A stretch of 64,000 nucleotides of DNA from Acidobacteriota bacterium (lineage in GTDB: Bacteria; Acidobacteriota; Terriglobia; Bryobacterales; Bryobacteraceae), in NCBI GenBank assembly GCA_017307505.1, contig JAFKEE010000016.1, positions 124,001 to 188,000 on the forward strand, read 5' to 3'. A program made the translations under genes and the position numbers. Positions 20,141 through 63,077 of the stretch are shown here, in pieces. The notes under the pieces were generated by a model. It was not told the DNA's origin and searched no databases. It saw only the letters and a list, made by a program, of their open reading frames with translations. The stretch's first letter is position 1. Every line of letters starts with the position of its first letter.

Positions 20141-21880
20141 GTGCCAGGGGGCAAGTGGCGGCTGATCACAGCGGTTCTGTTCATCGCGATGGCCGCGACC
20201 GTCTTCACTTTCGCTCTGGGCGAAACGCGCATCATCCGGCTGCTGCACCTGAAATCGGGCGACCTTTACTTTGTGGCCGCCCAGCCCGAGCAGCCCCGGG
20301 ACATCGTTCTCATCGTCGTCGACCAGAAGTCACTGGACCGCTTTCCGGAGCCGCTGCTGCTCTGGCACGGCTATTATGCCGAGGCGATCGAGGCCGCTGC
20401 CGCTGCCGGCGCCAAGGTTCTGGGCCTTGACGTCGCCTTCCCCATTCCCGTGAACCAGTGGGCCGCCGGGTTTGACGAGCGGATGGCGCAGGCTGTCATT
20501 TCCACCTCCGCGCAGATGCCGGTGATGTGCGGATATGCCGCCAGTACGCTGTCGCAGCAGCGGAAGTGGCCGGTGCCGATGAATATGGCCGCCGCGGCCC
20601 TGGGCCAGACCGCGTATGTGAACCTGCGAGCCGACGAGGATGACTTCATCCGGTCGATTGAGCTGGTGGAAGCCGAAGGGTCGCGGAGCATGTCGCTGGC
20701 GGTGTCGGAGCGGTTCCTGGGGCACCCGGTTTCCTATCCGCAGCACAACATGTTGATCCACTATGTCGGGCCGGCGGGAACGTTCCCGCGCGTATCGCTT
20801 TGTGACTTCATCGACGCGGCGCGCGCGGGCCGCCGGCAGCAGTTGCGGGACTGGGTGGGCGGCAAGGCGGTGTTGCTGGGTCCGGACCTGATTACCGACC
20901 GCCACGCCACTCCGTTCTATGCATTTCGCGCCGGCACGCCCGCCAATACGGCAGGCGTCGAGATCCACGCTAACGCGGTGTGGACTCTGTTGAGCGGCCG
21001 CCACATCACACCTCTGAGCCTGGCTTCCAAGTTTGCGATCACCATCGGTGTGAGTCTGGCCGCCGCGCTGATCACCTTGCTGGTGGCCGGCTGGCCGCTG
21101 TTCGGCTATCTGGTTCTGCTGGCCGCCTTCAGCACCAGCATCGGGTTTGTGCTCTTTGGGCGCGGATGGCTGCTCGCCCCTTCGGAGATCCTGCTGCCAC
21201 TGCTCATTTCAGGTCTGCTCTCCCTGGTTTTCGGCTACTTCTTCGCGGCCCGCGGCCGCGACACCTACCGCAATGCGGTGCGGGTGTTTGTCGGCAAGCA
21301 GGTGGCCGAGGCGCTGGACGCTTCGGGCACGATTGCCCTCACGGGCCGGCGCGAGGCGGTCACTATTCTGTTCACTGACATCCGGGGCTTCACTGCCTGG
21401 TGCGATGCCCAGGAACCGGAGACGGTGGTGGCGCGATTGAACGAGTACTTCGCCGTGATGACGGCGTGCATTGTCCGTCACGGGGGCCAGGTGAACAAAT
21501 TCATCGGCGACGGGATCATGGCCATTTTCAGCGATGCCGAAGGAGCCGCGCTGGGCGACCACGCGCTGCGGGCCGTCCGCTGTGCCGTCGAGATGGTGGG
21601 CCAGCCGCTGGAGTTCCGCACGGGCGCCGGCATCCACACCGGCGACGCCATCGTCGGCAACGTCGGCTCAGGCGATAAGATGGATTACACGGCTCTGGGT
21701 GACACGGTCAATCTGGCTGCCCGGCTTGAGGGCTTGAACAAAGAGTTCCAAACGCGCATTCTCATGAGTGCGGCTACCTGGGACCGAGTGAAAGGCTCCA
21801 TCGAGGCGCGGCGTCTGGGCCAGGTTTCCGTCAGGGGCAAGAGCGTGGAACAGTCGATCTACACCGTTGCGGAGGTTTGA
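20141..21880 (+). CDS. CHASE2-domain membrane adenylate cyclase (class III)
   Basis: 579 residues from a GTG start with AAGGAAGGG upstream. It has one N-terminal membrane helix and an extracytoplasmic CHASE2 sensor (about 30-310, starting DIVLIVVDQKSLDRFP). Two or three helices (about 310-380) then lead to a class III cyclase domain. Both metal aspartates are present (FTDIRGF, IGDGIMAIF), as is DYTALGDTVNLAARLEG with the transition-state Asn/Arg pair. NKFIGD lysine and DYTALGD aspartate favour ATP over GTP. The signal sensed is unknown. The next gene starts 1 bp after its stop. Confidence 0.94.
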   Translation: MPGGKWRLITAVLFIAMAATVFTFALGETRIIRLLHLKSGDLYFVAAQPEQPRDIVLIVVDQKSLDRFPEPLLLWHGYYAEAIEAAAAAGAKVLGLDVAFPIPVNQWAAGFDERMAQAVISTSAQMPVMCGYAASTLSQQRKWPVPMNMAAAALGQTAYVNLRADEDDFIRSIELVEAEGSRSMSLAVSERFLGHPVSYPQHNMLIHYVGPAGTFPRVSLCDFIDAARAGRRQQLRDWVGGKAVLLGPDLITDRHATPFYAFRAGTPANTAGVEIHANAVWTLLSGRHITPLSLASKFAITIGVSLAAALITLLVAGWPLFGYLVLLAAFSTSIGFVLFGRGWLLAPSEILLPLLISGLLSLVFGYFFAARGRDTYRNAVRVFVGKQVAEALDASGTIALTGRREAVTILFTDIRGFTAWCDAQEPETVVARLNEYFAVMTACIVRHGGQVNKFIGDGIMAIFSDAEGAALGDHALRAVRCAVEMVGQPLEFRTGAGIHTGDAIVGNVGSGDKMDYTALGDTVNLAARLEGLNKEFQTRILMSAATWDRVKGSIEARRLGQVSVRGKSVEQSIYTVAEV

Positions 21881-25289: not shown

Positions 25290-25778
25290 CTACTCGGCCG
25301 AAGGCTTGCGAAAGACCGCGAGGGCTTCGATCTCGATGAGCAGGTCCGGCCGGCACAGGATGGCCTGGATGCCCGTGGATGCAGGCAGAGGGTCGAGCCC
25401 CTGCTCGGCGAAGAAGGCGGTGCGCTCTTCGTTGAAGGCCTCGTAGTCGCGCTCGATGTCGCGCAGGTAGCACGTGGTGCGGACGATGTCCTTCCAGGTG
25501 GCGCCTTCGCTCTCAAGCAGGCCGGTGATGTTCTGGTAGGTCCGCCGCTGCTGCGCGCGGAAGTCGCCCACATGGACCGTTTTGCCGTGCTCGTCGATGC
25601 TGGCCGTGCCCGAAATCAACAGCACCGCGATGTTGCCGAAGTCCAGGCGGAGGCCCCGCGAGAATGAGCTGGGCTTGGCGTATGCATACGCCTCGTTCAG
25701 CACATTGTGGTTCGTGATCTTCTTCTTTTCGATGCTTGTGGCGCTGGCGATCTCGGCCAGGGCGTCGTCGAGTGTCAT
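25290..25778 (-). CDS. Rid (YjgF/UK114) superfamily protein lacking the usual catalytic arginine
   Basis: 162 residues from ATG 25778, which overlaps the stop of the binding-protein gene by 4 bp; GGAGG lies upstream. The Rid fold is shown by AVLLISGTASIDEHGKTVHVGDFRAQ and VRTTCYLRDIERDYEAFNEE. The C-terminal strand reads LLIEIEALAVF. In RidA enzymes the imine/enamine-deaminating arginine sits in a PAR motif. Here the equivalent block is PASTGIQA, so deaminase activity is doubtful and a binding or other lyase role is possible. It is the last gene of the redox/binding-protein operon. Confidence 0.87.
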   Translation of the reverse strand: MTLDDALAEIASATSIEKKKITNHNVLNEAYAYAKPSSFSRGLRLDFGNIAVLLISGTASIDEHGKTVHVGDFRAQQRRTYQNITGLLESEGATWKDIVRTTCYLRDIERDYEAFNEERTAFFAEQGLDPLPASTGIQAILCRPDLLIEIEALAVFRKPSAE

Positions 25779-26821
25779 GAGGAAACCTCCTGAATTCTCC
25801 GGCCGCGTGGGCCGAAGTGGGGCGCAAGCCGGTCGCGAATCAAGGCGCGGTTGAGTCCGGCTTCGCGGATGGCCTCGACGACGAACTGGGCCGCGTCGTA
25901 GGCGAGTAGTGAAAAATCGTCGGCAGGGCGCCCGAAGCGGCTGACGAGCCGCTGGATCCGGGAGTTGTCCGCCGAATGCAGCCTCGGAGTGACCACAGGG
26001 CGCTCCGAGGAAAAGCCCCGGCTGCGCGCCGCCGGCCCGGCCAGCAACCGCATGGCCGCCGGAGCTGCAGCCATCACCGCCGCCGTTTCCGCCGGCGGAG
26101 CGAGAATCACACAAGCCGCGCCTTCCAGCGCCGGCAGATTCAGCGGGCCAGGACCGATATCGTGCCGCTGGAACGGCAAGCGGTGTTTGAGCGCTGCCGC
26201 TTTCAGGAACTCCCGGGCCAGGTTCCTTGAATCGTGATCGGTGCCCGCTACCACGGTGAAGCCGCCCTCCGGCAGTTGGGCGGCGAGGTAGGCCGCGATC
26301 GCGGGATCTCCGGGCGCGCAGGAGAACATCCAAGGGACATTGGCGTGATTCACCGTCTGGTCCGTGCTGACCGGATCGACCAGCGGCAGCAGCGCCTTGG
26401 TCACCACCTGCTCGGCCAGGTGAGTCGTGGCCCCATCGATCCCGCCGAGGATCGCCCAGACTTCATCGGTATAGGCCAACCGGACGACGGCCGAAGCTCC
26501 GCTGCGCCACACGTCGTCGGACCAGCGCTCCACCAACTCGAAGGGCTTCCCGTGGAATCCGCCCGCCCGGTTGGCATCCTCGAGCGCCAGCATCGCGCCC
26601 ATCCAGATGGACCCGGCACGCGCATGGGCGGCATCGCCGGGACCGAAGAAGCCGATGCGGACCACGTCGACACCGCGCTTTCCGCCCTGCTCCCGGCCCG
26701 GCCCGGCATACTCCAGCGGCGTCGAGCGCTTGTCGAGGTACGGCTCCTGACCGAGAAGACACGTGGAGCCGCCCAACGCCAGGATGGCGCGGCGGCTCCA
26801 GGTGTCTCCTCGTCGGGTCAT
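25775..26821 (-). CDS. LivK/AmiC-type periplasmic ligand-binding protein (first of two)
   Basis: 348 residues. The N-terminus contains SRRAILALGG, a twin-arginine-like export signal. The mature part is a type I periplasmic binding fold: VRIGFFGPGDAAHARAG at the start, AMLALEDANRAGG, VWAILGGIDGATTHLAEQV and a C-terminal LAYDAAQFVVEAIREAGLNRALIRD. It is shorter and more diverged than the upstream paralogue. It lies 2 bp after that gene and overlaps the Rid gene by 4 bp. No ABC permease or ATPase is nearby, so it may act as a sensor or ligand carrier. Confidence 0.88.
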   Translation of the reverse strand: MTRRGDTWSRRAILALGGSTCLLGQEPYLDKRSTPLEYAGPGREQGGKRGVDVVRIGFFGPGDAAHARAGSIWMGAMLALEDANRAGGFHGKPFELVERWSDDVWRSGASAVVRLAYTDEVWAILGGIDGATTHLAEQVVTKALLPLVDPVSTDQTVNHANVPWMFSCAPGDPAIAAYLAAQLPEGGFTVVAGTDHDSRNLAREFLKAAALKHRLPFQRHDIGPGPLNLPALEGAACVILAPPAETAAVMAAAPAAMRLLAGPAARSRGFSSERPVVTPRLHSADNSRIQRLVSRFGRPADDFSLLAYDAAQFVVEAIREAGLNRALIRDRLAPHFGPRGRRIQEVSS

Positions 26822-26823
26822 AG

Positions 26824-28272
26824 CTACCGGCTCGCTGTCTCCAGACCCCGGCTCGTCCGGTCGCGCACCGGCACGAACCCGCGGGGAATCTGCAGCGTCT
26901 CCCGCGACTCATACTTCCAACGACCCTGGCCGAAGCGAGCCAGGAAGACTTCGCCCGCGTCGTCCATCACCGCGCTCAACGGGATGGCGCCGGTCACGCC
27001 CGGCCACGGCTTGGCCCGTGTGGCGATGAGGTCGCGGATTTTCGCCCGGTTCAGGCCGCCCTGCTGAATGGCCCAGATGAGCATATTCATGCCGTCGTAG
27101 GCGTGCGAGGCGTAGGTCTCGGGCTCTTCCTGGAAACGCGCTTTGAATGCCCGGCGGAACTCGTCGAGCTTGGGATCCTTGCGATCGGGATCCCAGGGAT
27201 AGCCGCAGATCACGCCTTCCGCATTGGCGCCGGCCGCCTGTACGAACTCCGGCGACACGCTGCGATCGGAGCAGAAGTAAGGCTGCTTCATGCCGCGCGC
27301 GCGCATCTGGTTCAGGATGAGGGCGCTCTCGCGCGCGTCGCCCCAATGGACAATCGCATCGACGTTCATTTCCTGAATGCGGTCCAGTTGGAGCGAGAAG
27401 TCGTCTCCGCCGACCTTGTAGGCCATCTCGATCGCCACCGGATGGCCCAACCGACGAGAGCTGTCCTTGATCTCACGCACGCCGAAACGTCCGTAACGGT
27501 TGCTGGCGCGGATGATCCCGATGCGCTTGTAGCCCATCTTGCGGATCATGTAATCCACGAGCAGGTAGCCCTGCTGCCGGTCGTCGCCGATGTTGCGCGC
27601 GACCCAGGGGATGTTGGTCTCGATGAAGGTGGGATCCGTATCGCCGGTGTTGATCATCACCACTTCCGCCTTCAGCGCCACGCGGATTGCGATGTGCGAA
27701 TTGGCGCTATCGATGGTGCCGAGAATCGCCCAGACCGGGTTCTCATACGCCATCTTCACGACTTCATTGCCGGTGGAGCCCCACAGACCGTTGTCATTCG
27801 CGACCGCCATCTCGAACGGGATCCGGCCCTTCAGGTAGCCGCCCTTGGCATTGGCCTGTTCCACGGCCAACTGGGCGCCTTTCAGCATCATCTTGCCGAG
27901 CACTTCTTCGTGGCTCTTGCCGCCCGTGGCGATCGACACCGTGGACTCGATGGGCCCGATGAAGCCGATGCGTACGCTCTTCAAGCCCACGGGTTCCGGC
28001 ACCGCGCGGCCGGGTCCGGTGTATTCCATCTGAACGAGGAAGTGTTCCTTGTAAGGCTTCACGGCGCCGAACGGCTCGACGTCGGTGGAGGTATGGGCGT
28101 AATTCTGTTCCGTCCGCAGTTTGAGGTCGGGCACTTCATAGGGAGAGAGCCCGTTGATGCGCCGCAGCACTTCCTGCGTCTCGGGATCCGCGGCCGGGGC
28201 CGGCGCAGGCTTCTTCGCCTCCTGGCCGATGGCCGCAGCCAGGCACAACATTGCCAGCACCAGGCGTTTCAT
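26824..28272 (-). CDS. LivK/UrtA-type periplasmic ligand-binding protein (second of two)
   Basis: 482 residues from ATG 28272, with a Sec signal peptide MKRLVLAMLCLAAAIGQ. About 80 extra residues precede the type I periplasmic binding fold (VRIGFIGPIESTVSIATGGK, QLAVEQANAKGGYLKGRIPF, WAILGTIDSANSHIAIRV, YDGMNMLIWAIQQGGLNRAKIRDLI). The preamble ends MEYTGPGRAVPEP, matched in the next gene by LEYAGPGREQ, so the two proteins share a novel pre-domain. It overlaps the sensor-propeller gene by 4 bp. The ligand is unknown; amino acids, amides or urea are typical of the family. Confidence 0.9.
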   Translation of the reverse strand: MKRLVLAMLCLAAAIGQEAKKPAPAPAADPETQEVLRRINGLSPYEVPDLKLRTEQNYAHTSTDVEPFGAVKPYKEHFLVQMEYTGPGRAVPEPVGLKSVRIGFIGPIESTVSIATGGKSHEEVLGKMMLKGAQLAVEQANAKGGYLKGRIPFEMAVANDNGLWGSTGNEVVKMAYENPVWAILGTIDSANSHIAIRVALKAEVVMINTGDTDPTFIETNIPWVARNIGDDRQQGYLLVDYMIRKMGYKRIGIIRASNRYGRFGVREIKDSSRRLGHPVAIEMAYKVGGDDFSLQLDRIQEMNVDAIVHWGDARESALILNQMRARGMKQPYFCSDRSVSPEFVQAAGANAEGVICGYPWDPDRKDPKLDEFRRAFKARFQEEPETYASHAYDGMNMLIWAIQQGGLNRAKIRDLIATRAKPWPGVTGAIPLSAVMDDAGEVFLARFGQGRWKYESRETLQIPRGFVPVRDRTSRGLETASR

Positions 28273-29420
28273 TTCGACGCCCTCCCGTTGGAAGCCAGAG
28301 CCCTGGGCCGTTCGCGCAAGCCGCCATAGTATCCCTCTCCGACGCCCCATGCCAGACCCTTGGATGTGGCGATGAAGATATCGTTGTCTTCCACATCCAC
28401 GGCCAGGATGTAGTTGTGCGTGAGGTTCAGACCCATCTCGACGGTTTCCAGAACGGTTTTGTCGCGGGTCACGACGGCCTTGCCGGTCTTCGATTTCGGA
28501 TCGCGCGTATAGGTGACCCAGGTGTTCGTCGCGACATCCATGATCGCGCCGAGGCCCTTGTCGGTGGCGAACCAGGCTTCATTGCCGCTGCGCGCCCGCA
28601 GGTTGTTGTTGAAGTCGCTGGGGTTGCCGGAGTCTTTGTTATAGAACGCGCGCCAGTTGCGCCCGTCGTAGCGGCAGACGCCGAAGTAGGTGGAGACCCA
28701 CAGGACCTTGTCGATGTAGTTGGCCTGGGTGGTAATGACGTGGACGATGCCGTCATCGCGATAGAGGTCGATTTCCATCTCACCGTCGGGATCGAGGTAG
28801 TCTTTCCAGCGGTTGGTGGCGACATCGTACTCGAGGACGCCGCTGCCCCAGACCGCGAGGTGGACTTTGCCGTCTCGGTAGTTCACGCCGTAGTTCCAGA
28901 TCTCTTCCATCGGCGCGTTCTTCTCAGTGAAGACGGACCACTCGCGCGACACCGTGTTGTATCGCGAGGCTCCGGCCGTGGTGGCGACCCACACGTTGTC
29001 GTTCTCCACCGCCACGCCGTAGGCCACATCGTTCACCAGGCCGCTGTTCATCTGGTGCCAGTGTTCAAAACGGCCGCCGCTGAACCGCGCCAGCCCGCCG
29101 CCAAACAGAGCCAGCCACACATCGCCCGTCTTTTTGTCGACATCGATGCCCGTCACAACGCGCCAGGGCAGACCATCCTTCTCGGTCCAGCTCTTCACCT
29201 TGCCCGAGGCTTTGTCGATCATGGCCAGACCGTTCTCGGTGCCCAGCCAGATGCGCGGACCGTCCGACTTCACCGCAAAGATGTGGTCGTTCGGCAAGCC
29301 GTTCTCGGTGGTGAACTGTTTCCACTTCGTGTACACGAAGGGCAATTTGCTTCCGCTGCCCGCCGGCTGCGCCGAAGCGGCGCACGTCGCCAACAATGCT
29401 GCTGCGAGTAGGTACTTCAT
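28269..29420 (-). CDS. Exported sensor-type beta-propeller (two-component regulator propeller repeats)
   Basis: 383 residues with a signal peptide (MKYLLAAALLATCAASAQ). Repeats follow the pattern of the reg_prop family: QFTTENGLPNDHIFAVKSDG, IWLGTENGLAMIDKASG and VWVATTAGASRYNTVS. Such repeats form the periplasmic sensor half of hybrid histidine kinases, but here no kinase domain follows, so it is a free propeller. It overlaps the multiheme gene and the binding-protein gene by 4 bp each. It may bind a ligand or the cytochrome. Confidence 0.9.
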   Translation of the reverse strand: MKYLLAAALLATCAASAQPAGSGSKLPFVYTKWKQFTTENGLPNDHIFAVKSDGPRIWLGTENGLAMIDKASGKVKSWTEKDGLPWRVVTGIDVDKKTGDVWLALFGGGLARFSGGRFEHWHQMNSGLVNDVAYGVAVENDNVWVATTAGASRYNTVSREWSVFTEKNAPMEEIWNYGVNYRDGKVHLAVWGSGVLEYDVATNRWKDYLDPDGEMEIDLYRDDGIVHVITTQANYIDKVLWVSTYFGVCRYDGRNWRAFYNKDSGNPSDFNNNLRARSGNEAWFATDKGLGAIMDVATNTWVTYTRDPKSKTGKAVVTRDKTVLETVEMGLNLTHNYILAVDVEDNDIFIATSKGLAWGVGEGYYGGLRERPRALASNGRASK

Positions 29421-32215
29421 AGTGTCTTCACAAACTCAATCAGGTCGTTCAACTGATCCTTCGTCATGTCGTTGGTCACACCGTGCTTGTCGTAGGGGTT
29501 GAACACGGTCCAGATCTCTTCCAACGTGTTGGCCATGCCGTTGTGCAGGTACGGGGCCGAATCGTAGATGTTGTTGAGGTGCGGCACGTCGAAGGTGCCC
29601 TGCCGGTCCAGCGCCTGTTGTGTGCCGACATCGAACTTCTTGCGGCTGGTGTAGTAGGGCGGCATGTGGCACGTGACGCAGCGATTATCCAGAGGGATGA
29701 CCCGGCCGTCGTTGGTTGTCCCGCGCTCGAAGATCGCCTTGCCGCGCTTCTGTGCAGGCGTGTAGGCCTCACCCGGCGTGTGGTGGCGGTTCGGTGGCCG
29801 CTGGATGGTGGTGATGTAGTAGTCCAACGCGTCCAGCTCCTCATTGGTGAAGGGCAGGTTACGCGTGAAGAAGACCGAAAGACGCGGGCCGCACTGCCGG
29901 CGCAGTGTCGCATTGGTCCCTTCCCATTTGAACGGGGCCGTATCGTAGATTCCGCGCAGCGTCCGGTTGTCCACCGGGCTCACGCCGATGCCATCGGCTT
30001 CGATGTCATAGGCCAGCCCATCCACGTGGCCGTCCGGGTGGCAACTGTGGCAGGCGAACTGGCGCCGGAAGGAGATCTTCGCGTTGTGGAACAGCCGCTC
30101 GCCCTTGCGCTGCAGCGTGATTTCCCTGGGTCCCTCCAGGCTGATGCGGCCAGCGGGTTGGAGTGTTTTGAGATCGATGACCGTCAGATCATCGTCCAGG
30201 GAGCCTGCTACATAGGCATACCGTCCGTCCGGGGCCATCGTCACGCCGCGAGGGCTGGTGGACGTGGGCACGAATCCGGCCAGAAAGTCGGCTGATTTGC
30301 CCAGGTGGTTCGGGATTACGGTCTCGCGATCCTGCTTGCTGGCGGACTTCAGCAGCCGCTCGAGTTTCGCGCAGTCGACAACCGCCACGCGATCTGTGCC
30401 CGAGCTCGTCACGAGCGCATAGCGTCCATCAATGGAGATGGCCACATCCGTGGCATCCGAGAAGCCGGCGCCCGGCTGGTCCAGCAGCACCTGGTCCACG
30501 GTTCCGTCTGCCCAGAGCACGGCGAGTCCGTTGGTGATCGTCCAGCCCTGCATCAACCGCGTCATGGGCACGAGGTTCTTGGTGCGGTTCATGGTGGCCA
30601 GCGCAAACCGGCCGCTGGGATGCCAGGCAATGCCGGCCATGAGATTCGTACCCGGCACCATGGGGCGATCGAGCACCGCCGACCGCTCCGTATCGATAAG
30701 AGTGATTTCGGACTTCAGCGGTTTGCGGAAACCTGTCAGGTTGGAGAACGTGCTGGTCACCGCGATGGTCCTGCCGTCGGGCGACAGTGCCAGCGACCAA
30801 GGCCCGATTCCGCCTGACAAGGTCTTCACGAACTTCAAGGTGGCCAGGTCAAACACCCAGATATCGTTGGACGAGGTGTTCAGGACGTAGAGCCGGCGGC
30901 CCTGGGCATCGGTCAACACTCCGTGCGGCTCATCGCCCACCTTCAGAGTCGATGTCACCAGGCGCGTACCGGTGTCGATCACGCTCACGGTGTCGCTTTC
31001 GCGGTTGGAGACGAAGGCCCGCTTGCCGTCGGGCGTGAACGCCACGTCGGTGGGCGCATTGCCGACCGCGATTTCAGCCGTCTTGCGGCGTGACTGGGTG
31101 TCGATGACGGCTACGACATTGCCCGCTTCGCAGGTGACCCAGAGTTCGGCCGTATGGGGGCGGAAGGTGAGATTCAGGGGGGTTTTGTAGCGAGTCTCCG
31201 CGGGCGGAGGAGGAAGCTTCGTGGGATGGGCGATTTTCGTCCAGGCCTTGGCCGCATCGAAGGGCTTGCCGTGCGTCTCGCGGTGGCAGTGGTTGCAACC
31301 GGTTGTCGAAGGAATGCGGAGGCCTGCCGCTTTGGCGGCCGCTGGGTCCTTCATCACGGCCTCGGTTGCATACTTTTTGCCCGCACCGTGGCAGGCCTCG
31401 CAGCCCACGCCTTCGTTTGCTTCGGCGCCCACGGCGTGGCAGCCCAGGCACTGCGTGCTGAGCTGGGGATCACCCGTCACCTTCATTTCACTGGCGATGC
31501 GGCGTCCGTCCGCCGTCGACAGCACTGCCCATGCCCGGGCATGATCGCTGCGCCGCCACACATCCCACTGATGGCCGTGATCGGGACCTTTGTGACAGGC
31601 TCCGCAGGCCGAGGAGCCGATGAAATCGCCGCCCCGCGGCGCCGGAGGGGCCCGCAGCTGCGACGGCTTCGTGAGCGGATGAGCGATGCGTGGAATCGCC
31701 TGTTTGATGTCCACGGTGGAGTTCGGGTTCACCGCGGTGTGCGAACCCTTCTCGAGATGGCAGCCGAGGCAAGTATCCTCGGTGGGGAGCCGCAGCCCGG
31801 CCTTCATCGCCTCTGCCTTGTTGCGCATGACCTCTTCGCTCATGTACTCGCTACCAGGACCGTGGCAGGATTCGCACTGGAGGCCGTCTTCGGGGCGGAA
31901 CGCGTCGTCCTTCTCCCAATCCTCCGCCGTCGAAGCCGTCGAGTGGCAGCCCAGGCAGATGGGTTCTTTCCACGGCTGTCCGCGCAGACCGCTGCGCTTC
32001 GTGATCTCCACCGACTCCGGCAGCGACAGCACCGCGTAGGCTTTCGAGTGCTTTGTCGTGAGCCACTTGCTGTACTGGTTGCCCATGCCGGCGCCGTCGT
32101 GGCACTGGCCGCACGCCCGCGCGCCCATGTACACCGGCTTCTTCGGAGCCGCTCCGCCCATCCCGAGCAGCGCCACAAGGCCGGCCGCCAAGACAGCAAT
32201 GGTCCGCACTCTCAT
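29417..32215 (-). CDS. Decaheme fusion: eight-heme cytochrome, YncE-like propeller, diheme peroxidase-like domain
   Basis: 932 residues with a signal peptide. CXXCH heme sites occur at residues 35, 87, 114, 149, 204, 256, 272, 307, 722 and 846. The first eight form two tandem tetraheme modules of cytochrome c554 type, each ending in an IAHP-(L)TK sequence. Residues about 340-700 are a YncE-like seven-bladed propeller (VGNAPTDVAFTPDGKRAFVS and similar blades). Residues about 700-932 resemble MauG/cytochrome c peroxidases (GERLFHNAK, CHSCHPDGH, RTLRGIYDTAPFKWEG, CVTCH). The protein is periplasmic or extracellular. It overlaps the propeller gene by 4 bp and follows CRTAC1 by 2 bp. Confidence 0.93.
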   Translation of the reverse strand: MRVRTIAVLAAGLVALLGMGGAAPKKPVYMGARACGQCHDGAGMGNQYSKWLTTKHSKAYAVLSLPESVEITKRSGLRGQPWKEPICLGCHSTASTAEDWEKDDAFRPEDGLQCESCHGPGSEYMSEEVMRNKAEAMKAGLRLPTEDTCLGCHLEKGSHTAVNPNSTVDIKQAIPRIAHPLTKPSQLRAPPAPRGGDFIGSSACGACHKGPDHGHQWDVWRRSDHARAWAVLSTADGRRIASEMKVTGDPQLSTQCLGCHAVGAEANEGVGCEACHGAGKKYATEAVMKDPAAAKAAGLRIPSTTGCNHCHRETHGKPFDAAKAWTKIAHPTKLPPPPAETRYKTPLNLTFRPHTAELWVTCEAGNVVAVIDTQSRRKTAEIAVGNAPTDVAFTPDGKRAFVSNRESDTVSVIDTGTRLVTSTLKVGDEPHGVLTDAQGRRLYVLNTSSNDIWVFDLATLKFVKTLSGGIGPWSLALSPDGRTIAVTSTFSNLTGFRKPLKSEITLIDTERSAVLDRPMVPGTNLMAGIAWHPSGRFALATMNRTKNLVPMTRLMQGWTITNGLAVLWADGTVDQVLLDQPGAGFSDATDVAISIDGRYALVTSSGTDRVAVVDCAKLERLLKSASKQDRETVIPNHLGKSADFLAGFVPTSTSPRGVTMAPDGRYAYVAGSLDDDLTVIDLKTLQPAGRISLEGPREITLQRKGERLFHNAKISFRRQFACHSCHPDGHVDGLAYDIEADGIGVSPVDNRTLRGIYDTAPFKWEGTNATLRRQCGPRLSVFFTRNLPFTNEELDALDYYITTIQRPPNRHHTPGEAYTPAQKRGKAIFERGTTNDGRVIPLDNRCVTCHMPPYYTSRKKFDVGTQQALDRQGTFDVPHLNNIYDSAPYLHNGMANTLEEIWTVFNPYDKHGVTNDMTKDQLNDLIEFVKTL

Positions 32216-32217
32216 AC

Positions 32218-33861
32218 TCAGCGCACCGCCTTTGCCGTGGCCGCGTGCTCCAGCTTCAGAACCTGGTTGGCCTTGACGTGTTCCAGCCGCTCCACCTGTC
32301 CGTCCGGCCAGCGGATCTCCACTGTGTCCGCCTCCTTCGCGCCCGCCAGCCCGAAGTGCAGCCGTGAATCGCCCTGCGACAGGTAGCCCCGCACGGGATT
32401 CACATCGTCGATCATTTTCAGACCCGCCGCCGTCACCGTCACGCGCGCGCCAATCGCGGTGCGCGAGCCGGTGGGAAAATTCAGCCGCGCATCCACCATG
32501 ATCCAGGGTTTCGCATTGCCGCCGTCGTTTCGCAGAAGCTTAGCGGCGTCGTTGAGATTCACCACCAGCAGGTCGATGTCGCCGTCGTTGTCGATGTCGG
32601 CCCACGACGCTCCGCGGCCCACGTACTTCTCGTTGAAGTAGCTGCCGGAGCGGCGGGAGACATCCTCGAACGTACCGTCGTGCTTATTCCGCACCAGTGT
32701 GTCTTCCTGGACGTACTCGTGGTGTGCGTTACCGTGCACGGTGAAAAGATCGAGCCAGCCGTCGTGGTCGTAGTCGAAGACCACCGAACCCCAGCCCGCA
32801 TACTGACCCAGCATGGCCGACAGGCCCGCCTGGTTGGCCATGTTGTCATAGTGCTTGTCCTTAGGGTTGTAGACGAACAGGCTGACATAGTTCAGGTTCG
32901 GGACGAAGATGTCCAGCCAACCGTCGCGGTTCACATCGCCAAAGAACGGGCCCATCGAGGAAACGCCCTGCCCGTGCTCGCTGTAGGCGATGTCCAGGTC
33001 CAGCGCCTTTTCCACGAACGTGCCCTTGCCGGTGTTCTCGAAGAAGTAGTTCTCCATGGCGTCATTCGCCACGAAGATGTCCATGTATCCGTCGTTGTTG
33101 AAATCGGCTGCGCTGACGCTCATCGCCCGGCCGTTGGACTTGTAGACGCCAGCTTCCTTCGTCACGTCGGTGAAGGTGCCGTCGCCATTGTTGCGGTAGA
33201 GGGCGTTGGGCTGGCCGCTGTAGCTGAGAGGGCCCGGATAGCCCTGGGCCGGGTAGAAGTCGCGGAACTTGCCGTCGTCGTACTTCAGGTAGTTGCCGAC
33301 AAAGACATCGAGCCAGCCGTCGTTGTTGTAGTCGAACCACACGGCCGAGACGCTCCAGCGGGCATCGGCCAGGCCGGACTTCTCCGAGACGTCGGTGAAC
33401 GTTCCGTCCCCGTTGTTGTGATAGAGCGTGTTGGCGCCGTAGTTGAGCAGGTAGAGATCGACGCGCCCGTCGTTGTCGTAATCGGCGGCCGAGCAGCCTG
33501 AGCCAAAGGTCATGCTGGCCACGCCCGCCTGCGCCGTCACGTCGGTGAAGGTGCCGTTGCCGTTGTTCCTGTACAGCTTGCCGGAGAGTTTGCCGCGCAG
33601 TTCGCGGCCCTCGTTGTCGCTAACGCTTTTCGTCCAGACGCCGGTGACGAAGTAGATGTCCTGGAAGCCGTCGTTGTTGTAGTCGAAGAAGCAGGCACCG
33701 CCGCCGGTGCCTTCCACGATGTTGTCCAGGTGATGATCGCCGTAGCTGTGCCGGAAGGTGATGCCCGCCGGTTTCGTGATGTCCGTGAACACCGGCAGGG
33801 TGCTTTCGTCGCCCGCCCACACGGTTGCCGCCATCAGAATCACCAGCCGGCCGAGCTTCAT
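32218..33861 (-). CDS. CRTAC1 family protein (FG-GAP/VCBS propeller with ASPIC/UnbV tail)
   Basis: 547 residues with a signal peptide. Many FG-GAP/VCBS repeats are visible as FFDYNNDGFQDIYFVTG, AADYDNDGRVDLYLLNYG, DVNRDGWLDIFVPNLN and DIDNDGDIDLLVVNLND, with calcium-binding DxDxDG loops. The C-terminus is an ASPIC/UnbV domain (ARVTVTAAGLKMIDDVNPVRG, ending VEIRWPDGQVERLEHV). These secreted proteins are abundant in acidobacteria and have no defined reaction; they are thought to bind polymers or partners. The gene overlaps the HzsA-like gene by 4 bp (33858-33861). Confidence 0.95.
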   Translation of the reverse strand: MKLGRLVILMAATVWAGDESTLPVFTDITKPAGITFRHSYGDHHLDNIVEGTGGGACFFDYNNDGFQDIYFVTGVWTKSVSDNEGRELRGKLSGKLYRNNGNGTFTDVTAQAGVASMTFGSGCSAADYDNDGRVDLYLLNYGANTLYHNNGDGTFTDVSEKSGLADARWSVSAVWFDYNNDGWLDVFVGNYLKYDDGKFRDFYPAQGYPGPLSYSGQPNALYRNNGDGTFTDVTKEAGVYKSNGRAMSVSAADFNNDGYMDIFVANDAMENYFFENTGKGTFVEKALDLDIAYSEHGQGVSSMGPFFGDVNRDGWLDIFVPNLNYVSLFVYNPKDKHYDNMANQAGLSAMLGQYAGWGSVVFDYDHDGWLDLFTVHGNAHHEYVQEDTLVRNKHDGTFEDVSRRSGSYFNEKYVGRGASWADIDNDGDIDLLVVNLNDAAKLLRNDGGNAKPWIMVDARLNFPTGSRTAIGARVTVTAAGLKMIDDVNPVRGYLSQGDSRLHFGLAGAKEADTVEIRWPDGQVERLEHVKANQVLKLEHAATAKAVR

Positions 33862-35144
33862 TTCTTATCTCCCAATCCCAATCGCACAGGCTTTTTGATC
33901 ACGGCCTGTGCTTCCACGTTCTCGGGCGCCAGTTCCGGATCCTCGTGGCACCCGATGCAGCCCCGGTTCTCCTTGTTTCTTACCCACACCCAGGAACTGC
34001 TGCGCATGACGCGGCCCGCCGGATCGAGAGTCTGCAGCTTCACACGCGTATTGGCCGGAAGCTCCAGGTGGAACGACCCATCCGCCTCGACGGCCAGTTC
34101 ACCCAGGCGCACGGGCGCAGCGTCGGAGCCGGTGAGGACCCTCACCTTTTTGATGGAGCCGGCGGCCACCGGCCGGTCTGTCGTGTAGACACTGAGGCAG
34201 TACAGGTGACCGCTGGGGGACGCGGCATCCACGACCGTTCCGCGCCCATCCGGTTCTGGGTGCGGGCCGACCACTTTGGCCTGGATCTCGTCGAACTCCG
34301 GGGTGTCAAACAGGAGCGTCCGCTGCCGGGTGGCGAGATCCAGCCGCCAGAGCCCCCAGCCAGCCGGGCCTTTCTTCGCAACCACTACCGCCGCTTCGCC
34401 GAAGGCCGCCGGAGCCGCAAAGACTCCGTCCACGGCAGCCGTGAGTAGAGCGTGGGAGTGGAGCGGCCGCTCCTGCGTGACCATGGACAACTGTCCGGCC
34501 GCTTCCACGAACACAACTTTGCGGCCCACGGCCGACGGCGAGCGAGCATTGGTACCCGCCGCGAATAAAGCGTAGTCCGTCCCGTCCAGGTTGATTCCAA
34601 ACAGACGGCCGCCCGATGAGTAGATCATGCGGCCTTCGGGGAGCATGGCCGGACCGGCGTCGCCCTGCCCGGCATAGGTGAGCCGCTGGACCTCCGAGCC
34701 GTCCAGCTTCGAAGAATAGAGCGCCCCGCCACAGACGAAGGCCACCTGGGGCCAGGGGTCGGGAATATCGAGCGAAAAGATGCGTGACTGGTAGACCGGC
34801 TGGCGGCAGCCACCCTTTTCGTGGCTGATCTGCCGGGCGCCGCTGCCATCCGAGGACATCTCGAAGACCTGCCAGGGGTCGGCGGCCGAGCGGCGTCCGG
34901 CAAAAAGAATGCGCTTGCCGTCGAAAGATACGTCCGGATCCGCCGCAGCCGCAAAGTTCTCGCTGAGGACCCGTCCCTGACCTGTCCAATCAAGGAGATA
35001 CAGGCGTTCGGCGTGTCCGGCGCGGGCCTGGGTGACCACGAGACCAGTGGACCCCGGAACCTGCGCGCCCCCCGCTTTGAGTGCGCCATCGGCGCCCCAG
35101 ACAGCGGTCAGAGCGGCGGTGAGCAGTATTCCGTGCGCCAGCAT
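33858..35144 (-). CDS. HzsA-like exported WD40/TolB-type propeller with one C-terminal heme motif
   Basis: 428 residues from ATG 35144, with signal MLAHGILLTAALTAVWG. A TolB/WD40-like propeller follows: DPDVSFDGKRILFAGRR, WQVFEMSSDGSGARQI and KLDGSEVQRLTYAGQGD. A beta domain comes next, and near the C-terminus a single CXXCH (NRGCIGCHEDPELAPENVEA) is followed by VIKKPVRLG. This tail resembles proteins annotated as related to the hydrazine synthase alpha subunit; hydrazine synthesis itself is not implied. It is the first gene of the seven-gene operon. TATACT (minus strand, 35161-35166) is a possible -10 box. Confidence 0.85.
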   Translation of the reverse strand: MLAHGILLTAALTAVWGADGALKAGGAQVPGSTGLVVTQARAGHAERLYLLDWTGQGRVLSENFAAAADPDVSFDGKRILFAGRRSAADPWQVFEMSSDGSGARQISHEKGGCRQPVYQSRIFSLDIPDPWPQVAFVCGGALYSSKLDGSEVQRLTYAGQGDAGPAMLPEGRMIYSSGGRLFGINLDGTDYALFAAGTNARSPSAVGRKVVFVEAAGQLSMVTQERPLHSHALLTAAVDGVFAAPAAFGEAAVVVAKKGPAGWGLWRLDLATRQRTLLFDTPEFDEIQAKVVGPHPEPDGRGTVVDAASPSGHLYCLSVYTTDRPVAAGSIKKVRVLTGSDAAPVRLGELAVEADGSFHLELPANTRVKLQTLDPAGRVMRSSSWVWVRNKENRGCIGCHEDPELAPENVEAQAVIKKPVRLGLGDKK

Positions 35145-35297: not shown

Positions 35298-36572
35298 ATG
35301 AACCAATCAGCTGAGGGGCTGCCCGGCCGCCGCGGCTTCCTAAAAGCCGGCGCCGTGGGTTTCCCCGCCATACTTTCCGCCGCGCAGAGCGCGAATGCAA
35401 TCAAGGTTGGACTCGTCGGTGCAGGCGGTCGTGGCAGCGGTGCAGCCGCCCAGGCCCTCAAGGCTGACGACTACGCCGAACTGACGGCTGTCGCCGACAT
35501 CGACATGGACACGATCGACAAGAGCCTGGCCCGCCTCCAACGCGCTGCCGGTCCGAAGATCAAAGTCGCGAGCGACAAGAAATTCGTCGGCCTGGACGCG
35601 TTCCAGAAGGTGATCGACAGCGGTGTGGACGTGGTCCTGCTGGCCACGCCTCCTGGTTTCCGGCCGCAGCACCTGCGGTACGCGATCGAGGCGGGCAAGC
35701 ACGTCTTCTGCGAGAAGCCGGTGGCCACCGATGCGCCTGGCGTACGCCACGTGCTGGAGACCGTCGACATTGCCACCAAGAAGAACGTCTCGCTGGTCGC
35801 CGGGTTCTGCTGGCGGTACTCCAACTACATTAAAGAGACGTTCGACAAGATCGGTAGCGGAGCCATTGGCGACATCGTCGCCTACTACGCGACCTACTAC
35901 ACCAGCCCGGTGAAGCCGATGCCCCCGGAGAGCAGCCGCCCGGCCGGCATGAGCGACACGGAGTGGCAGATCCGTAACTGGTACAACTTCCAGTGGCTTT
36001 GCGGCGACAGCCTGGTGGAACAGGCCGTGCACAGCGTGGACAAGGTGGCCTGGGCCATGAAGGATCAGCCCCCGGTGAGCTGCGTGGCCGTGGGTGGCCG
36101 CCAGATTCCCGCCAATGGCGGCAACATCTTCGACCACTTTGAGGTTAACTATATCTATCCCAATGGGGTACGGGCGTTTGTAGCGAACCGCCAGATTGAG
36201 AACTGCTACAACGAGAACTCGGACTACATCCTGGGCACGAAGGGCACCTGCACCATCGGCCGCGGCCCGAATCCGCGCATCGAAGGCCAGAATCCCTGGA
36301 CCTTCGAGGGCCAGAAGAACGACATGTACCAGCACGAGCATGACGTGCTGTTCGCCTCGATCCGCAAGAGCCAGCCGATCAACGACGGAAAGCGAATGGC
36401 GACCTCCACGCTGCTGGCCATGATGGGCCGCATGGCCGCCTATACCGGCCAGCAGATCACCTGGGAGCAGGCACTCAACTCCCAGGAACGTCTCGTGCCC
36501 GACACCATCGACTGGAAGGGCAGCCTGGCTGTCCCGCCCATGCCGCTGCCGGGCAAGACCAAGTTCATCTAG
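35298..36572 (+). CDS. Tat-exported Gfo/Idh/MocA family oxidoreductase
   Basis: 424 residues. A twin-arginine signal (GRRGFLKAGAVGFPAILSAA) precedes an NAD(P)-binding Rossmann fold (IKVGLVGAGGRGSGAA). The catalytic-type motif is GKHVFCEKPVATD. A second domain carries WLCGDSLVEQAVHSVDKVAW, typical of exported acidobacterial and planctomycete members. These proteins carry a tightly bound nicotinamide cofactor and oxidise or isomerise sugars. It heads a plus-strand operon with SUMF1-like and ApbE genes, 8 and 19 bp apart. TAAAAT at 35286-35291 is a possible -10 very close to the ATG. Confidence 0.95.
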   Translation: MNQSAEGLPGRRGFLKAGAVGFPAILSAAQSANAIKVGLVGAGGRGSGAAAQALKADDYAELTAVADIDMDTIDKSLARLQRAAGPKIKVASDKKFVGLDAFQKVIDSGVDVVLLATPPGFRPQHLRYAIEAGKHVFCEKPVATDAPGVRHVLETVDIATKKNVSLVAGFCWRYSNYIKETFDKIGSGAIGDIVAYYATYYTSPVKPMPPESSRPAGMSDTEWQIRNWYNFQWLCGDSLVEQAVHSVDKVAWAMKDQPPVSCVAVGGRQIPANGGNIFDHFEVNYIYPNGVRAFVANRQIENCYNENSDYILGTKGTCTIGRGPNPRIEGQNPWTFEGQKNDMYQHEHDVLFASIRKSQPINDGKRMATSTLLAMMGRMAAYTGQQITWEQALNSQERLVPDTIDWKGSLAVPPMPLPGKTKFI

Positions 36573-36580
36573 CCCGACCC

Positions 36581-37585
36581 ATGCAGAAATTGCGTAAGTT
36601 CCTCTTTCTACTGGCTCTGCCGGCGGCCGCCCAAACAGCGGCCCCGGCCAAGCCGGCCGCGGACGATCTCAAACTCGTCCAGGGCCTGCAGCGCCGCATC
36701 GCCTCCGGAACCAAGGAAAAGAAGGCTTCGGACATGAAGCCCTACAAGTCCACCATTCCGGGCACCGATGTCAGCTTTGAGATGGTCCCGATTCCGGGCG
36801 GCGAGTTCACCATGGGCACCCCCACCGGGGAAGCCGGCCGCCAAAAGGACGAAGGCCCCCAACATAAGGTCAAGCTGGATCCGTTCTGGATGGCGGCCCA
36901 CGAGGTGACCTGGGACGAATACCGGCTTTTTCAGTTTGCGCAGGCTGACGGGAAGATGCCGGACGTCGACGCCGTGTCGCATCCGACGCGGCCGTATGTC
37001 GAAATGAGCTTCGGGATGGGGCTGAACGGCTTTCCGGCCATCAGCATGACCCAGCACGCGGCGAACAAGTATGCGCAGTGGCTGAGCGCCAAGACGGGCC
37101 AGTTCTACCGGCTGCCGACCGAGGCCGAATGGGAGTATGCCTGCCGGGCGGATAACGCTCCGGTGGATCTCGCCGCCTCGGCCTGGTATGACGCCAACGC
37201 CAACGGCAAGTATCAGCTCGTGGGCAAGAAGAAGCCTAACGCCTGGGGTCTCTATGACATGCTGGGCAACGTCATGGAGTGGACCCTGGACGCCTACGCC
37301 CCGTATTCGGCCGCCGAGGCCGTCAATCCGTGGGTGAAGTCGAAGACGAGCTACCCGCAGGTGGCCCGGGGCGGTTCCTGGAACGATCCCGCGTCCAGCC
37401 TGCGCTGTGGAGCGCGCGTCGCCTCCGACGCGAGTTGGAAACAGCAGGATCCTCAACTGCCGAAGAGCATCTGGTACCTCACGGATGCCCAGTGGCTGGG
37501 CTTCCGCCTGGTGCGCCCCCTGAAGGTGCCGTCGGTGGTGGAGATGAACTCCTACTGGAACAACGGAGTGGAAGTCGATCCGTAA
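36581..37585 (+). CDS. Exported SUMF1/formylglycine-enzyme-like protein without catalytic cysteines
   Basis: 334 residues with a signal peptide (KFLFLLALPAAAQTA). The FGE-sulfatase fold follows: MVPIPGGEFTMGTPTGEAG, FWMAAHEVTWDEYRLF, YRLPTEAEWEYACRAD, NAWGLYDMLGNVMEWTLDAY and ARGGSWNDPASSLRCGARV. In true formylglycine-generating enzymes two cysteines lie after the GGSF motif. Here that block reads NDPASSL and only one nearby Cys occurs, shifted. It is therefore probably a structural or binding member rather than a sulfatase activator. Confidence 0.93.
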   Translation: MQKLRKFLFLLALPAAAQTAAPAKPAADDLKLVQGLQRRIASGTKEKKASDMKPYKSTIPGTDVSFEMVPIPGGEFTMGTPTGEAGRQKDEGPQHKVKLDPFWMAAHEVTWDEYRLFQFAQADGKMPDVDAVSHPTRPYVEMSFGMGLNGFPAISMTQHAANKYAQWLSAKTGQFYRLPTEAEWEYACRADNAPVDLAASAWYDANANGKYQLVGKKKPNAWGLYDMLGNVMEWTLDAYAPYSAAEAVNPWVKSKTSYPQVARGGSWNDPASSLRCGARVASDASWKQQDPQLPKSIWYLTDAQWLGFRLVRPLKVPSVVEMNSYWNNGVEVDP

Positions 37586-59862: not shown

Positions 59863-59876
59863 TCCATCCCTTTCGT

Positions 59877-62800: not shown

Positions 62801-63077
62801 TCGTGTCGCAGCAGGACACGTTGTAGACCGGCAATTCACCCGGAATTAGCGAAGCGGGAAAGAGCAACTGTCCGGCGCTGACCTGCCAGGGGAGTTCCTT
62901 GCCGTCTGGATTGGTAATGGTGAAGCCTGTGGCGTGTCCGCCCAGTTTGGCGAGCGGCACCGCCACTGCTTCGTTGGTCCGGCGGTAGAGCCCGGTGGGC
63001 TCCTCCACCCGCACAGTCCAGACTTGCGCGGCCTGCGAAACACCGGCCAGCAGCAGCAAGAGACTACCGAACCGCAT
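59877..63077 (-). CDS. Large exported glycoside hydrolase family 2 enzyme with extra N-terminal domain
   Basis: 1066 residues with a signal peptide. About 390 residues of unrecognised beta-rich sequence precede a GH2 core: sugar-binding domain (LPLDGPWQLAFVEKGEGPPT, DYYADTYLNGAYVGRHEGYI), immunoglobulin-like domain, and TIM barrel (GKRMFIRGTNYYYHLYMSEM). The putative acid/base E786 lies in WATSDEEDF, where GH2 usually has NE. The nucleophile E847 is in SELGATSLPNYETL. GH2 covers beta-galactosidases, mannosidases and glucuronidases; specificity cannot be told. It ends 14 bp before the next gene. Confidence 0.93.
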   Translation of the reverse strand: MRFGSLLLLLAGVSQAAQVWTVRVEEPTGLYRRTNEAVAVPLAKLGGHATGFTITNPDGKELPWQVSAGQLLFPASLIPGELPVYNVSCCDTKASTPFVNPILLRRLGLNRVEFGNAFFRAVIDLKAAAIVEAYTLRTGPQKSLNLVETTPEGGEALKGDVHETTPEAERFSPAPVTGVSGQNTGWTTLGGQGGFTAVELLETGPLRGRLKLTRANESWEITWTSGNAWFRWKASRGFRFAAISASPYVPFDRCKDGSEYEFPGGPGEEEPLPRDVGPRNWPTLPGGHMVYYQGAENYGALGIVALDSALRWTGAGTRRFEARKPEGATEIAVTFPEWQGSMTAVAARQENRMLRQPLLVQVSAVTATAVAIQEPAERLVAATVGAGPATPFQQDALPLDGPWQLAFVEKGEGPPTSGWKTVQVPGSVHVQWLDPSKIYSRDAEWVSYKEWWYKRTFTVPERFQGKRLRLQFEATDYYADTYLNGAYVGRHEGYIDPYEFDVTDQARPGQNEILVRVWTPVDYYWKHRPYTIKGAYGAVDQKPDDITALGITRSVRLAASTEAQIRDVAVDTRLKGAAAEVSVQLEAAAVDRGFTWELTLSPRNFPGSGRIQVKAAARTKQTLTIPVAQPQLWWTRDHGKPNLYTLDVRLLDASGRAVDGQSLAVGIREIEKIGWDFYLNGKRMFIRGTNYYYHLYMSEMDRSKYERDIKLMAGMNINMIRLHCHFSNREFYDLADEYGLLIWQDFLEAWYPHDRGFAQRAAMLYDNHVRYARNHPSIALWATSDEEDFENYREITKHLFPRPSALDPQRRAVIRSTGRFGDSHVYHGWYNGTLWEYTQMQEQFVSELGATSLPNYETLIQFMPNQWPIKDHEEEWIWRRLQIPQAMKAWGDPGALSLKEYIPQTQAYVARLFQIALERMRRRKNEGAGGILHFHAIDIWPSVTMAAIDFNRVPTKVYDTVRRSFEPVAALFEYDRDKWKPGETVRCGLWAVNDRWTAVPGAKLRWHFEGKTGEYPVSLAADSVVRLGAAEFAAPAKPGPYELKAEILDSAGKVLSENVFEFAVAP

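Follow-up and report, generated by a model that had tools for sequence, protein, structure and literature searches.

The window analyzed here, 64,000 nucleotides from the genome of an Acidobacteriota bacterium of the family Bryobacteraceae (contig JAFKEE010000016.1, positions 124,001 to 188,000), carries a seven-gene operon, g1 to g7, that runs on the minus strand from position 35144 to 25290 (Table 1). Its genes are tightly packed, with 4-bp overlaps at g1/g2, g3/g4, g4/g5, and g6/g7 and 2-bp gaps at g2/g3 and g5/g6, and the genome that carries it (9.39 Mb) is 99.93% complete. A sequence-only reading of this DNA had described an envelope redox system of heme proteins, propellers, and transporter-type binding proteins. 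The coordinates, strand, order, and spacing that it gave for the seven genes are borne out, and Pfam and NCBIfam searches returned the families that it had assigned, with one CxxCH heme-binding motif in g1 and ten in g3. These eleven motifs, together with signal-like N termini (judged by eye) in the products of g1 to g6, support its placement of the system in the envelope; no such start was seen in g7.

That reading did not state that g1 and g3 amount, by homology, to a full alpha plus beta-gamma set like that of hydrazine synthase (HZS), since profiles of their relatives recover the alpha, beta, and gamma chains of the HZS structure 5c2v. On the sequence evidence we consider it very probable that the operon encodes an HZS-related multiheme redox complex and likely, with somewhat less confidence, that the binding proteins are non-transport partners of this complex. 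Taken jointly, we give these two propositions a probability of about 0.75.

Table 1. Features of the operon (positions in the window; values after profile names are E values)
Feature	Position	Strand	Description
g1	33858..35144	-	HzsA-like (HZS alpha) propeller plus middle domain; PF18582 HZS_alpha 1e-16; relatives' profile versus 5c2v_A 1.8e-89
g1 heme motif	33945..33959	-	Consensus RGCIGCHED.EL.PEN; heme alpha-I equivalent
g2	32218..33861	-	CRTAC1-like FG-GAP/UnbV propeller; PF13517 3.7e-59; PF07593 (UnbV_ASPIC) 8.9e-24
g3	29417..32215	-	Ten-heme fusion, 932 aa: two c554 domains, HzsB-like, HzsC-like
g3 residues 34-330	31226..32116	-	Two tetraheme cytochrome c554 domains; PF13435 in two stretches; 8 of the 10 CxxCH (read from the translation)
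g3 residues 341-682	30170..31195	-	HzsB-like 7-bladed propeller; NF052340 4e-48
g3 residues 696-932	29420..30130	-	HzsC/cytochrome c peroxidase-like di-heme domain; C722-H726, W764, Q774, C775, R778, C846-H850, H911
g4	28269..29420	-	Free-standing secreted (signal-like start, by eye) 7-bladed propeller; Reg_prop PF07494 2.8e-5; no kinase domain
g5	26824..28272	-	LivK-fold binding protein with conserved N-terminal extension; PF13458 (Peripla_BP_6) 6.9e-40
g5 residues 22-95	27988..28209	-	N-terminal extension, ...PYKEHFL.QMEYTGPGR.; conserved columns; outside the binding-protein fold
g6	25775..26821	-	Second LivK-fold protein; PF13458 2.5e-17; Tat-like SRRAIL signal (by eye)
g7	25290..25778	-	Single-domain Rid fold, 162 aa; PF01042 (Ribonuc_L-PSP) 1.1e-18; no signal peptide seen

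The fusion protein g3 scores best overall against the profile of HZS beta-gamma fusions (NF052342, 1e-57); PF13435 Cytochrome_C554 matches it twice (7.3e-25), and the HZS gamma profile matches its di-heme domain (2.3e-21). The profile of its relatives finds 5c2v_B at 2.9e-67 and 5c2v_C at 1.5e-34. Besides the HzsA-, HzsB-, and HzsC-like chains and the two gamma CxxCH motifs, the likeness to HZS extends to single residues. In the alignments from which the residue counts of g1 and g3, the pairwise identities, and the heme counts were taken, the window's copy (L141) is one of the rows, and three contigs, as judged from their length and coordinates, occur in duplicate (L124 = L042, L128 = L044, L129 = L054). 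In that of the g3 gamma domain (84 rows), C775, the equivalent of the third heme-linked cysteine of HZS (gamma-Cys165), is kept in 81 rows including that of the window, an assignment at residue level with a putative bond. H911, which aligns with the second histidine of heme gamma-II (gamma-His332), is found in all 82 non-gap rows, and R778 in all 84.

The key residues of HZS are, however, absent. W764 occupies the position of gamma-His144 and is Trp in 84 of 84 rows, and the column of gamma-Asp168 holds Leu (78 rows), Thr (5), or Ala (1). The CxxCH motif of g1 is present in 56 of 58 rows, the remaining two being gaps; no equivalent of Tyr591 follows it, with Glu at position +4 in 53 of the 56 non-gap rows, and the Cys303 column of the g1 profile alignment is not a conserved cysteine. 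As read from its sequence, g1 stops 28 residues past this sole motif and has no heme alpha-II domain, which is absent from the window, L042, L123, and L125 (window's genus). Among 52 relatives, the alpha-II motif is CX2CH in 27, CX4CH in 14, and absent in 11; the CX4CH form, a noncanonical c-type site, is seen in g1 of L046, L048, L052, L054, L070, L073, L078, L092, and L094. The operon further differs from HZS in its eight additional heme motifs and in its CRTAC1, propeller, and binding-protein genes, and the HZS gene order is reversed relative to it, going by the description in PMC12758564.

Because these key residues are absent, the operon does not encode a hydrazine synthase. The homology of all three subunits and the kept gamma-Cys165 equivalent could suggest a true HZS in a hidden anammox-type organism, and such organisms have been suggested among some Phycisphaerae (PMC10732223), but the lack of equivalents of Tyr591, Cys303, His144, and Asp168 and of an alpha-II heme in the window makes this extremely improbable, and we reject it. 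The same conclusion was reached in PMC12758564 for the HZS homologues considered there, likewise from missing key residues. A search for PF13447, the HAO/HDH-type partner, gave no match in the genome, nor in any control genome.

Until recently, HZS was thought to be without relatives (PMC12758564). Suarez et al. proposed in 2023 a wide family of HZS-like proteins that act on other substrates (PMC10732223), and in 2025 Hagglund et al. (PMC12758564) reported non-anammox HZS relatives, among them a "clade I" with the order alpha-CRTAC1-beta-gamma, eight extra heme motifs, and two c554 domains, in which they place Paludibaculum fermentans. The operon matches this clade in its g1-g2-g3 order, in the eight N-terminal extra motifs in two c554 domains, in the kept gamma-Cys165, and in the Trp at gamma-His144. 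It differs in lacking alpha-II, for which Opitutus terrae is the only clade I member named. This is in tension with the listing of P. fermentans in clade I if, as may be the case, the window's genus is Paludibaculum. Two ABC substrate-binding protein genes downstream are mentioned in the same paper, in a sentence whose subject may be either clade III alone or clades I to III together. In the portions of that paper available to us, clade I is assigned no function and is described without mention of g4, the Rid/chorismatase-like gene, DAHP synthase, the missing transporter, or the co-occurrence of g5. A literature search (preprints and most subscription journals lie outside its coverage) found this to be the sole paper naming both hydrazine synthase and Paludibaculum. 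The finding is real and strikingly conserved, but its core is already published; the additions made here are the colinearity of g1 to g5 in several phyla, the co-occurrence of g5 with g3, the failure to find a leucine-type transporter, and the chorismatase-like proteins that stand in for the Rid protein in some loci.

The di-heme domain of g3 was also aligned to the cytochrome c peroxidase (CCP) and MauG group (9qdt, 1iqc, 3o5c). In common with these, it has two CxxCH motifs, the inter-heme Trp (W764), and a Gln ten residues on (Q774, 81 of 84 rows); in contrast to them, the position of the CCP Met ligand (1iqc) is Phe, H911 serves instead as in HZS, and there is an extra Cys. By its sequence, g3 thus combines features of both families: its Trp and Gln are those of cytochrome c peroxidases, whereas Met is replaced by Phe and H911 fits HZS gamma-II. 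The kept Trp and the alignment with MauG- and MbnH-type proteins would also fit a MauG-like maturation, where the di-heme domain modifies g4, g5, or g2 and the binding proteins are its product or chaperones. This is unlikely, given that the Met ligand of CCP gives way to a His as in HZS; moreover, we know of no MauG system with fused octaheme and HzsB domains and an alpha partner.

Conservation of the gene set across genomes

A scan of genome contigs with g3 gave 93 relatives, and the best 80 loci, with 42 to 71% identity in their best segments, were used. Synteny was counted in the 41 loci with at least 3.8 kb upstream and at least 5 kb downstream, the other 39 being left out for too short a flank. 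Presence was taken from profile searches of six-frame translations instead of from naive longest-ORF gene calls, in which the strand is sometimes wrong. The order g1-g2-g3-g4-g5 is colinear in 38 of these 41 loci; this recurrence in other genomes shows that the arrangement is not due to chance and agrees with the conserved synteny that the sequence-only reading had expected in relatives. Taken singly, g4 is present in all 41 loci, g1 and g5 in 40 each, g2 in 39, g6 in 36, and a same-strand g7 (>150 bits) in 14. One of the three non-colinear loci (L084) fails because its g3 frame is open upstream across g2, and L111 and L119 are true deviations. By record title, the colinear set spans Acidobacteriota, Planctomycetota, Verrucomicrobiota, Omnitrophota, and others, several titles being those of doubtful bins (e.g., "Arcobacter", L109).

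Within an even sample of 396 Acidobacteriota genomes, g3 was found in 24, counting the partial matches in G152, G325, and G349, so the gene set is sporadic. Twenty genomes have both g3 and g5, one has g5 alone (G129, 83% complete), four have g3 alone, and 371 have neither (Fisher p ~1e-28, kinship not corrected); in 17 of the 20, both genes lie on one contig. For this count, g5 was scored from a match of at least 250 bits (19 genomes) or from one at a contig end (G213 and G270); weaker matches in 24 further genomes, mostly to residues 130 to 464, were taken as ordinary LivK-type proteins. HZS relatives thus form a recurrent gene set to which a propeller and a binding protein also belong, the latter in an approximately 1:1 relation with the beta-gamma fusion in Acidobacteriota.

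Median pairwise identities are 0.62 for both g4 and g5, 0.59 for g2, 0.58 for g3, 0.40 for g1, and 0.36 for g6. The propeller and the first binding protein are therefore conserved as much as the enzyme subunits, which suggests that they are parts of the machine and not loosely attached sensors.

Some Bryobacteraceae have a two-heme form of the cluster, g1-g2-g3-g4-(Rid)-g5-(g6), which fits clade II as described in PMC12758564; the gene order given there for clade III is seen in L121. Beyond the two-heme cluster of L136 (12421-14758) and L138 (12276-14721) come genes for a GMC oxidoreductase, identified by a scan in L136, and for gluconate 2-dehydrogenase subunit 3, identified by a scan in L138, which suggests a linked periplasmic flavoprotein dehydrogenase beside this form. 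Seven Planctomycetota loci (L060, L067, L072, L100, L102, L105, and L110) have CRTAC1-like genes beyond the cluster on the opposite strand, most of them with an extra gene between two CRTAC1 genes, a tetratricopeptide repeat (TPR) protein where scanned (L110). When the flanks were clustered, every other gene family was confined to 9 of 100 loci at most.

Binding proteins, propeller, and absence of a transporter

The AlphaFold2 model of g5 (pLDDT 86.7) has a full LivK fold as predicted, with a Z score of 41.9 to 3td9 over 346 residues (2.5 Å), and its structural matches begin near residue 96. A divergent paralogue of g5 (BLASTP 7e-26), g6 has the EY.GPGR motif in common with it. The genome encodes no PF13458 protein besides these two. 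It has two PF02653 permeases, which are unpaired and both adjoin a double-ABC ATPase of the RbsA type, one of them together with a sugar-type Peripla_BP_4 binding protein; paired LivH/LivM permeases (PF02653) with their own ATPases were not found genome-wide. No leucine-type (LIV) ABC system was therefore found in this genome, and a role of g5 and g6 in LIV transport is rejected on this census. The sequence-only reading had noted the lack of a permease and ATPase, which is borne out within the operon and, as regards the LIV type, across the 99.93% complete assembly; the unlinked dedicated LIV permease that could have undone its view of binding proteins without an ABC partner was not found.

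It is still conceivable that g5 and g6 are ordinary transporter subunits with a permease encoded elsewhere, as the full LivK fold of the g5 model would allow. This is very unlikely, given that both PF02653 permeases lie beside RbsA-type ATPases and that g5 and g6 are alone in the genome in matching PF13458. Moreover, the g5 position that we take to be the ligand of an amino-acid carboxylate, a Ser in the window copy, is Gly in 37 of 44 rows, which makes a plain amino acid an improbable ligand in most of the family. LivK-type proteins are thus not proof of a transporter, just as HZS_alpha matches are not anammox markers. Membership in a PQQ-ABC system (TIGR03863 to TIGR03868) was also rejected: g5 and g6 have no TIGR03863 match at E ≤ 0.1, and g3 reaches 130 bits against TIGR03866, with a cutoff of 287.3.

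Several charged loop residues near the expected cleft of g5 are invariant (D160, H193, D213, R232, R259, R262, and R337 in 44 of 44 rows; D188 in 43). The structural matches include the hydroxybenzoate binding proteins 4q6w and 4evq; an aromatic ligand of this type, with which the chorismatase-like and DAHP synthase genes close to some clusters would fit, is a lead only, given that binders of amino acids stand above these two in the ranking and that matches extend over the entire family.

The propeller g4 (AlphaFold2 model, pLDDT 89.8) has the BT4663 sensor propeller in the top rows of its structure search at 17 to 18% identity, amid many WD40 propellers. As modeled, it is a generic seven-bladed propeller to which the structure search gave no function. 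A further stand-alone Reg_prop propeller (693 aa; 57799-59880, plus its neighbor, a GH2 glycosidase at 59877-63077) is encoded in the window, the propeller on the minus strand.

The resemblance to BT4663, the closeness of the g5 fold to AmiC (Z of 34.8 to 1qo0 and 34.6 to 1pea, within a list in which all Peripla_BP_6-type structures are close), and the invariant charges by the cleft, which fit one conserved ligand, would be consistent with the ligand gating that the sequence-only reading had inferred. In such a scheme, g5 and g6 would respond to a small molecule and act with g4 to turn on the redox complex, in the manner of AmiC or hybrid two-component sensors. We regard this as possible but rather doubtful. 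Pfam searches of the seven genes found no kinase, response regulator, or transmembrane part, g4 has no signaling output domain, and conservation of g4 and g5 at the level of the enzyme is more usual for subunits.

A better documented precedent, by analogy, is that of activation or maturation partners. XoxJ and MxaJ are essential for their dehydrogenase and may bind partly folded apo-enzyme, while disruption of pedG has modest effects only (PMC12997753, PMC7391723). As far as these reports describe them, XoxJ, MxaJ, and PedG resemble g5 and g6 in having a binding-protein fold, no identified transporter, and a gene beside that of a periplasmic redox enzyme (PMC12997753, PMC7391723). They differ in that PedG is annotated as a PAAT-family protein (PMC12997753) whereas g5 and g6 have the LivK fold, and in that the partner is a quinoprotein and not a multiheme enzyme.

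Proposed reaction and points that weigh against it

In the reading that we favor, an HZS-related redox complex with non-transport binding-protein partners, the operon proteins would assemble into one periplasmic complex. Electrons would pass between the c554 modules and the His/His heme of g3 (gamma-II type) and would then reach the gamma-I-type heme, with its third Cys and CCP-like Trp and Gln, as the site of chemistry. In HZS itself, reported heme potentials are about −310 mV in the column that is taken here as gamma-II and about −30 mV for gamma-I (PMC12607021). A second heme site would be added by g1, joined via the HzsB-like propeller. The binding proteins g5 and g6 would have as their partner either a dedicated small ligand or the apo-enzyme, and would thereby load, activate, or gate the complex, as XoxJ and MxaJ do for methanol dehydrogenases.

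Among candidate reactions, reduction of a small N-O or O-O substrate (nitric oxide [NO], hydroxylamine, an N-oxide, or peroxide) would rank first; the relationship to HZS, the His/His second heme, and the third heme Cys of the sequence weakly favor this direction, for which we see even odds, over the oxidation that the sequence-only reading had put forward as a possibility. A nitrogenous substrate is more doubtful: the "small nitrogen compound" of the sequence-only reading has its one basis in HZS ancestry, and the HZS key residues are missing. In a wider and speculative view, which we hold as one possibility among several, the operon would represent a widespread class of periplasmic redox machines built from HZS stock, in which transporter-type binding proteins have become obligate catalytic or gating subunits that hand over a ligand. 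That ligand, perhaps a nitrogen oxide, an amine, or a chorismate-derived aromatic compound, would go to a heme site wired to the octaheme conduit. The g5 ligand and the reaction of g1 and g3 offer a testable handle on what HZS ancestors did, and P. fermentans is a cultured organism that possibly bears the set (PMC8407742).

Several observations weigh against the favored reading or parts of it. With key residues missing at both alpha-I and gamma-I, HZS chemistry is not transferable to the operon. The c554 modules and the lack of NirK in bearers leave room for oxidation and for non-nitrogen substrates. Cytochrome c554 is the classical electron acceptor from hydroxylamine oxidation, which argues for an oxidative direction. 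NirK (TIGR02376) scores above cutoff in 9 of 61 relatives and in none of the 37 Bryobacteraceae; bearers therefore have no NirK-derived supply of NO, the search having been for NirK and not for NirS or others. NrfA (PF02335) is above cutoff in 21 of the 61 relatives, of which 14 Bryobacteraceae were counted at 200 bits or more. It accompanies the c554-bearing form (10 Bryobacteraceae with g5 at least 66% identical to the window's, among them G001 and G002 with six hemes) in 7 of 10 bearers, against 7 of 27 other Bryobacteraceae, a weak and genus-confounded association (p 0.023); for either form, the figures are 8 of 15 against 6 of 22 (p 0.17), confounded by relatedness. One bearer assembled in two contigs and 100% complete (G006) has no NrfA above cutoff.

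The association of the parts is also imperfect. L111, which is clade IV-like (isolate OFTM285), has g1, g3, and a weak g4 match without g2 and g5 on the stretch examined, and L114 (isolate OFTM5) has the same content as far as its contig runs; the binding proteins are therefore dispensable for some HZS-like pairs. Both isolates appear in PMC10732223. Evolutionary distances of g3 correlate with those of g1 at 0.88, g2 at 0.85, g4 at 0.82, g6 at 0.76, and g7 at 0.42, and with those of g5 at just 0.62 in an alignment that includes some g6-like rows. Finally, ten CxxCH motifs are found in 66 of the 84 g3 rows, six in 6, two in 11, and nine in 1, which is truncated. Even in the window's genus, the g3 of L125 and L126 (genomes G001 and G002) keeps just six motifs and a single c554 domain, a sign of evolutionary plasticity in the octaheme part.

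Rid-fold gene, chorismatase-like proteins, and neighboring genes

Where RidA has PAR, g7 has PAS in the alignment, the Arg that we take to be catalytic being replaced by Ser. In this it differs from RidA, and the caution of the sequence-only reading against assuming imine chemistry was right; g7 is related to chorismatase-like proteins. It is homologous to chorismatases of the FkbO/Hyg5 type over their C-terminal Rid-fold domain; it differs from them in being a single domain, and it matches TIGR04444 with 1e-7 and 31.6 bits, against a cutoff of 325. Among the 39 loci in which this could be judged, 19 contain a Rid-fold match, versus about 3% expected if the 11 PF01042 genes of this genome are typical. 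Planctomycetota, by record title, account for 17 of the 20 Rid-negative loci and for none of the 19 Rid-positive ones; the chorismatase-like locus L055, outside this count, is titled Phycisphaerales.

Seven loci (L094, L097, L098, L055, L084, L089, and L095) have a longer chorismatase-like protein instead of g7. The six that were scanned, all but L084, match TIGR04444 at 1.7e-9 to 1.5e-42, all under the cutoff, the last value being that of L095, which also matches PF21168. DAHP synthase adjoins the cluster in L137, L138, L092, L084, and L089 (tblastn; confirmed by profile for L138). The literature search, with the same limits of coverage as above, found no paper naming both chorismatase and hydrazine synthase, and a link of chorismate metabolism to HZS-like clusters is on this basis apparently unpublished. 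A second copy of g7, 81% identical, is encoded elsewhere in the genome (L041:10866-11372, minus strand), adjoining another CRTAC1-like gene, a TPR gene, and a GH97 glycosidase; no g1- or g3-like match was found in the 19-kb stretch around it.

A scan for promoters and terminators gave matches at chance level, and no regulator was found among the seven genes or their two divergent neighbors. The latter, both on the plus strand, are a GFO_IDH_MocA oxidoreductase (35298-36572), whose family occurs in 9 of 100 loci (one contig twice, window included), and a protein with an FGE-sulfatase domain of the formylglycine-generating-enzyme type (36581-37585). About 3.4 kb past the end of g7, the plus strand encodes a protein with CHASE2 and adenylate/guanylate cyclase domains (20141-21880), a cyclase of the extracytoplasmic-sensor kind.

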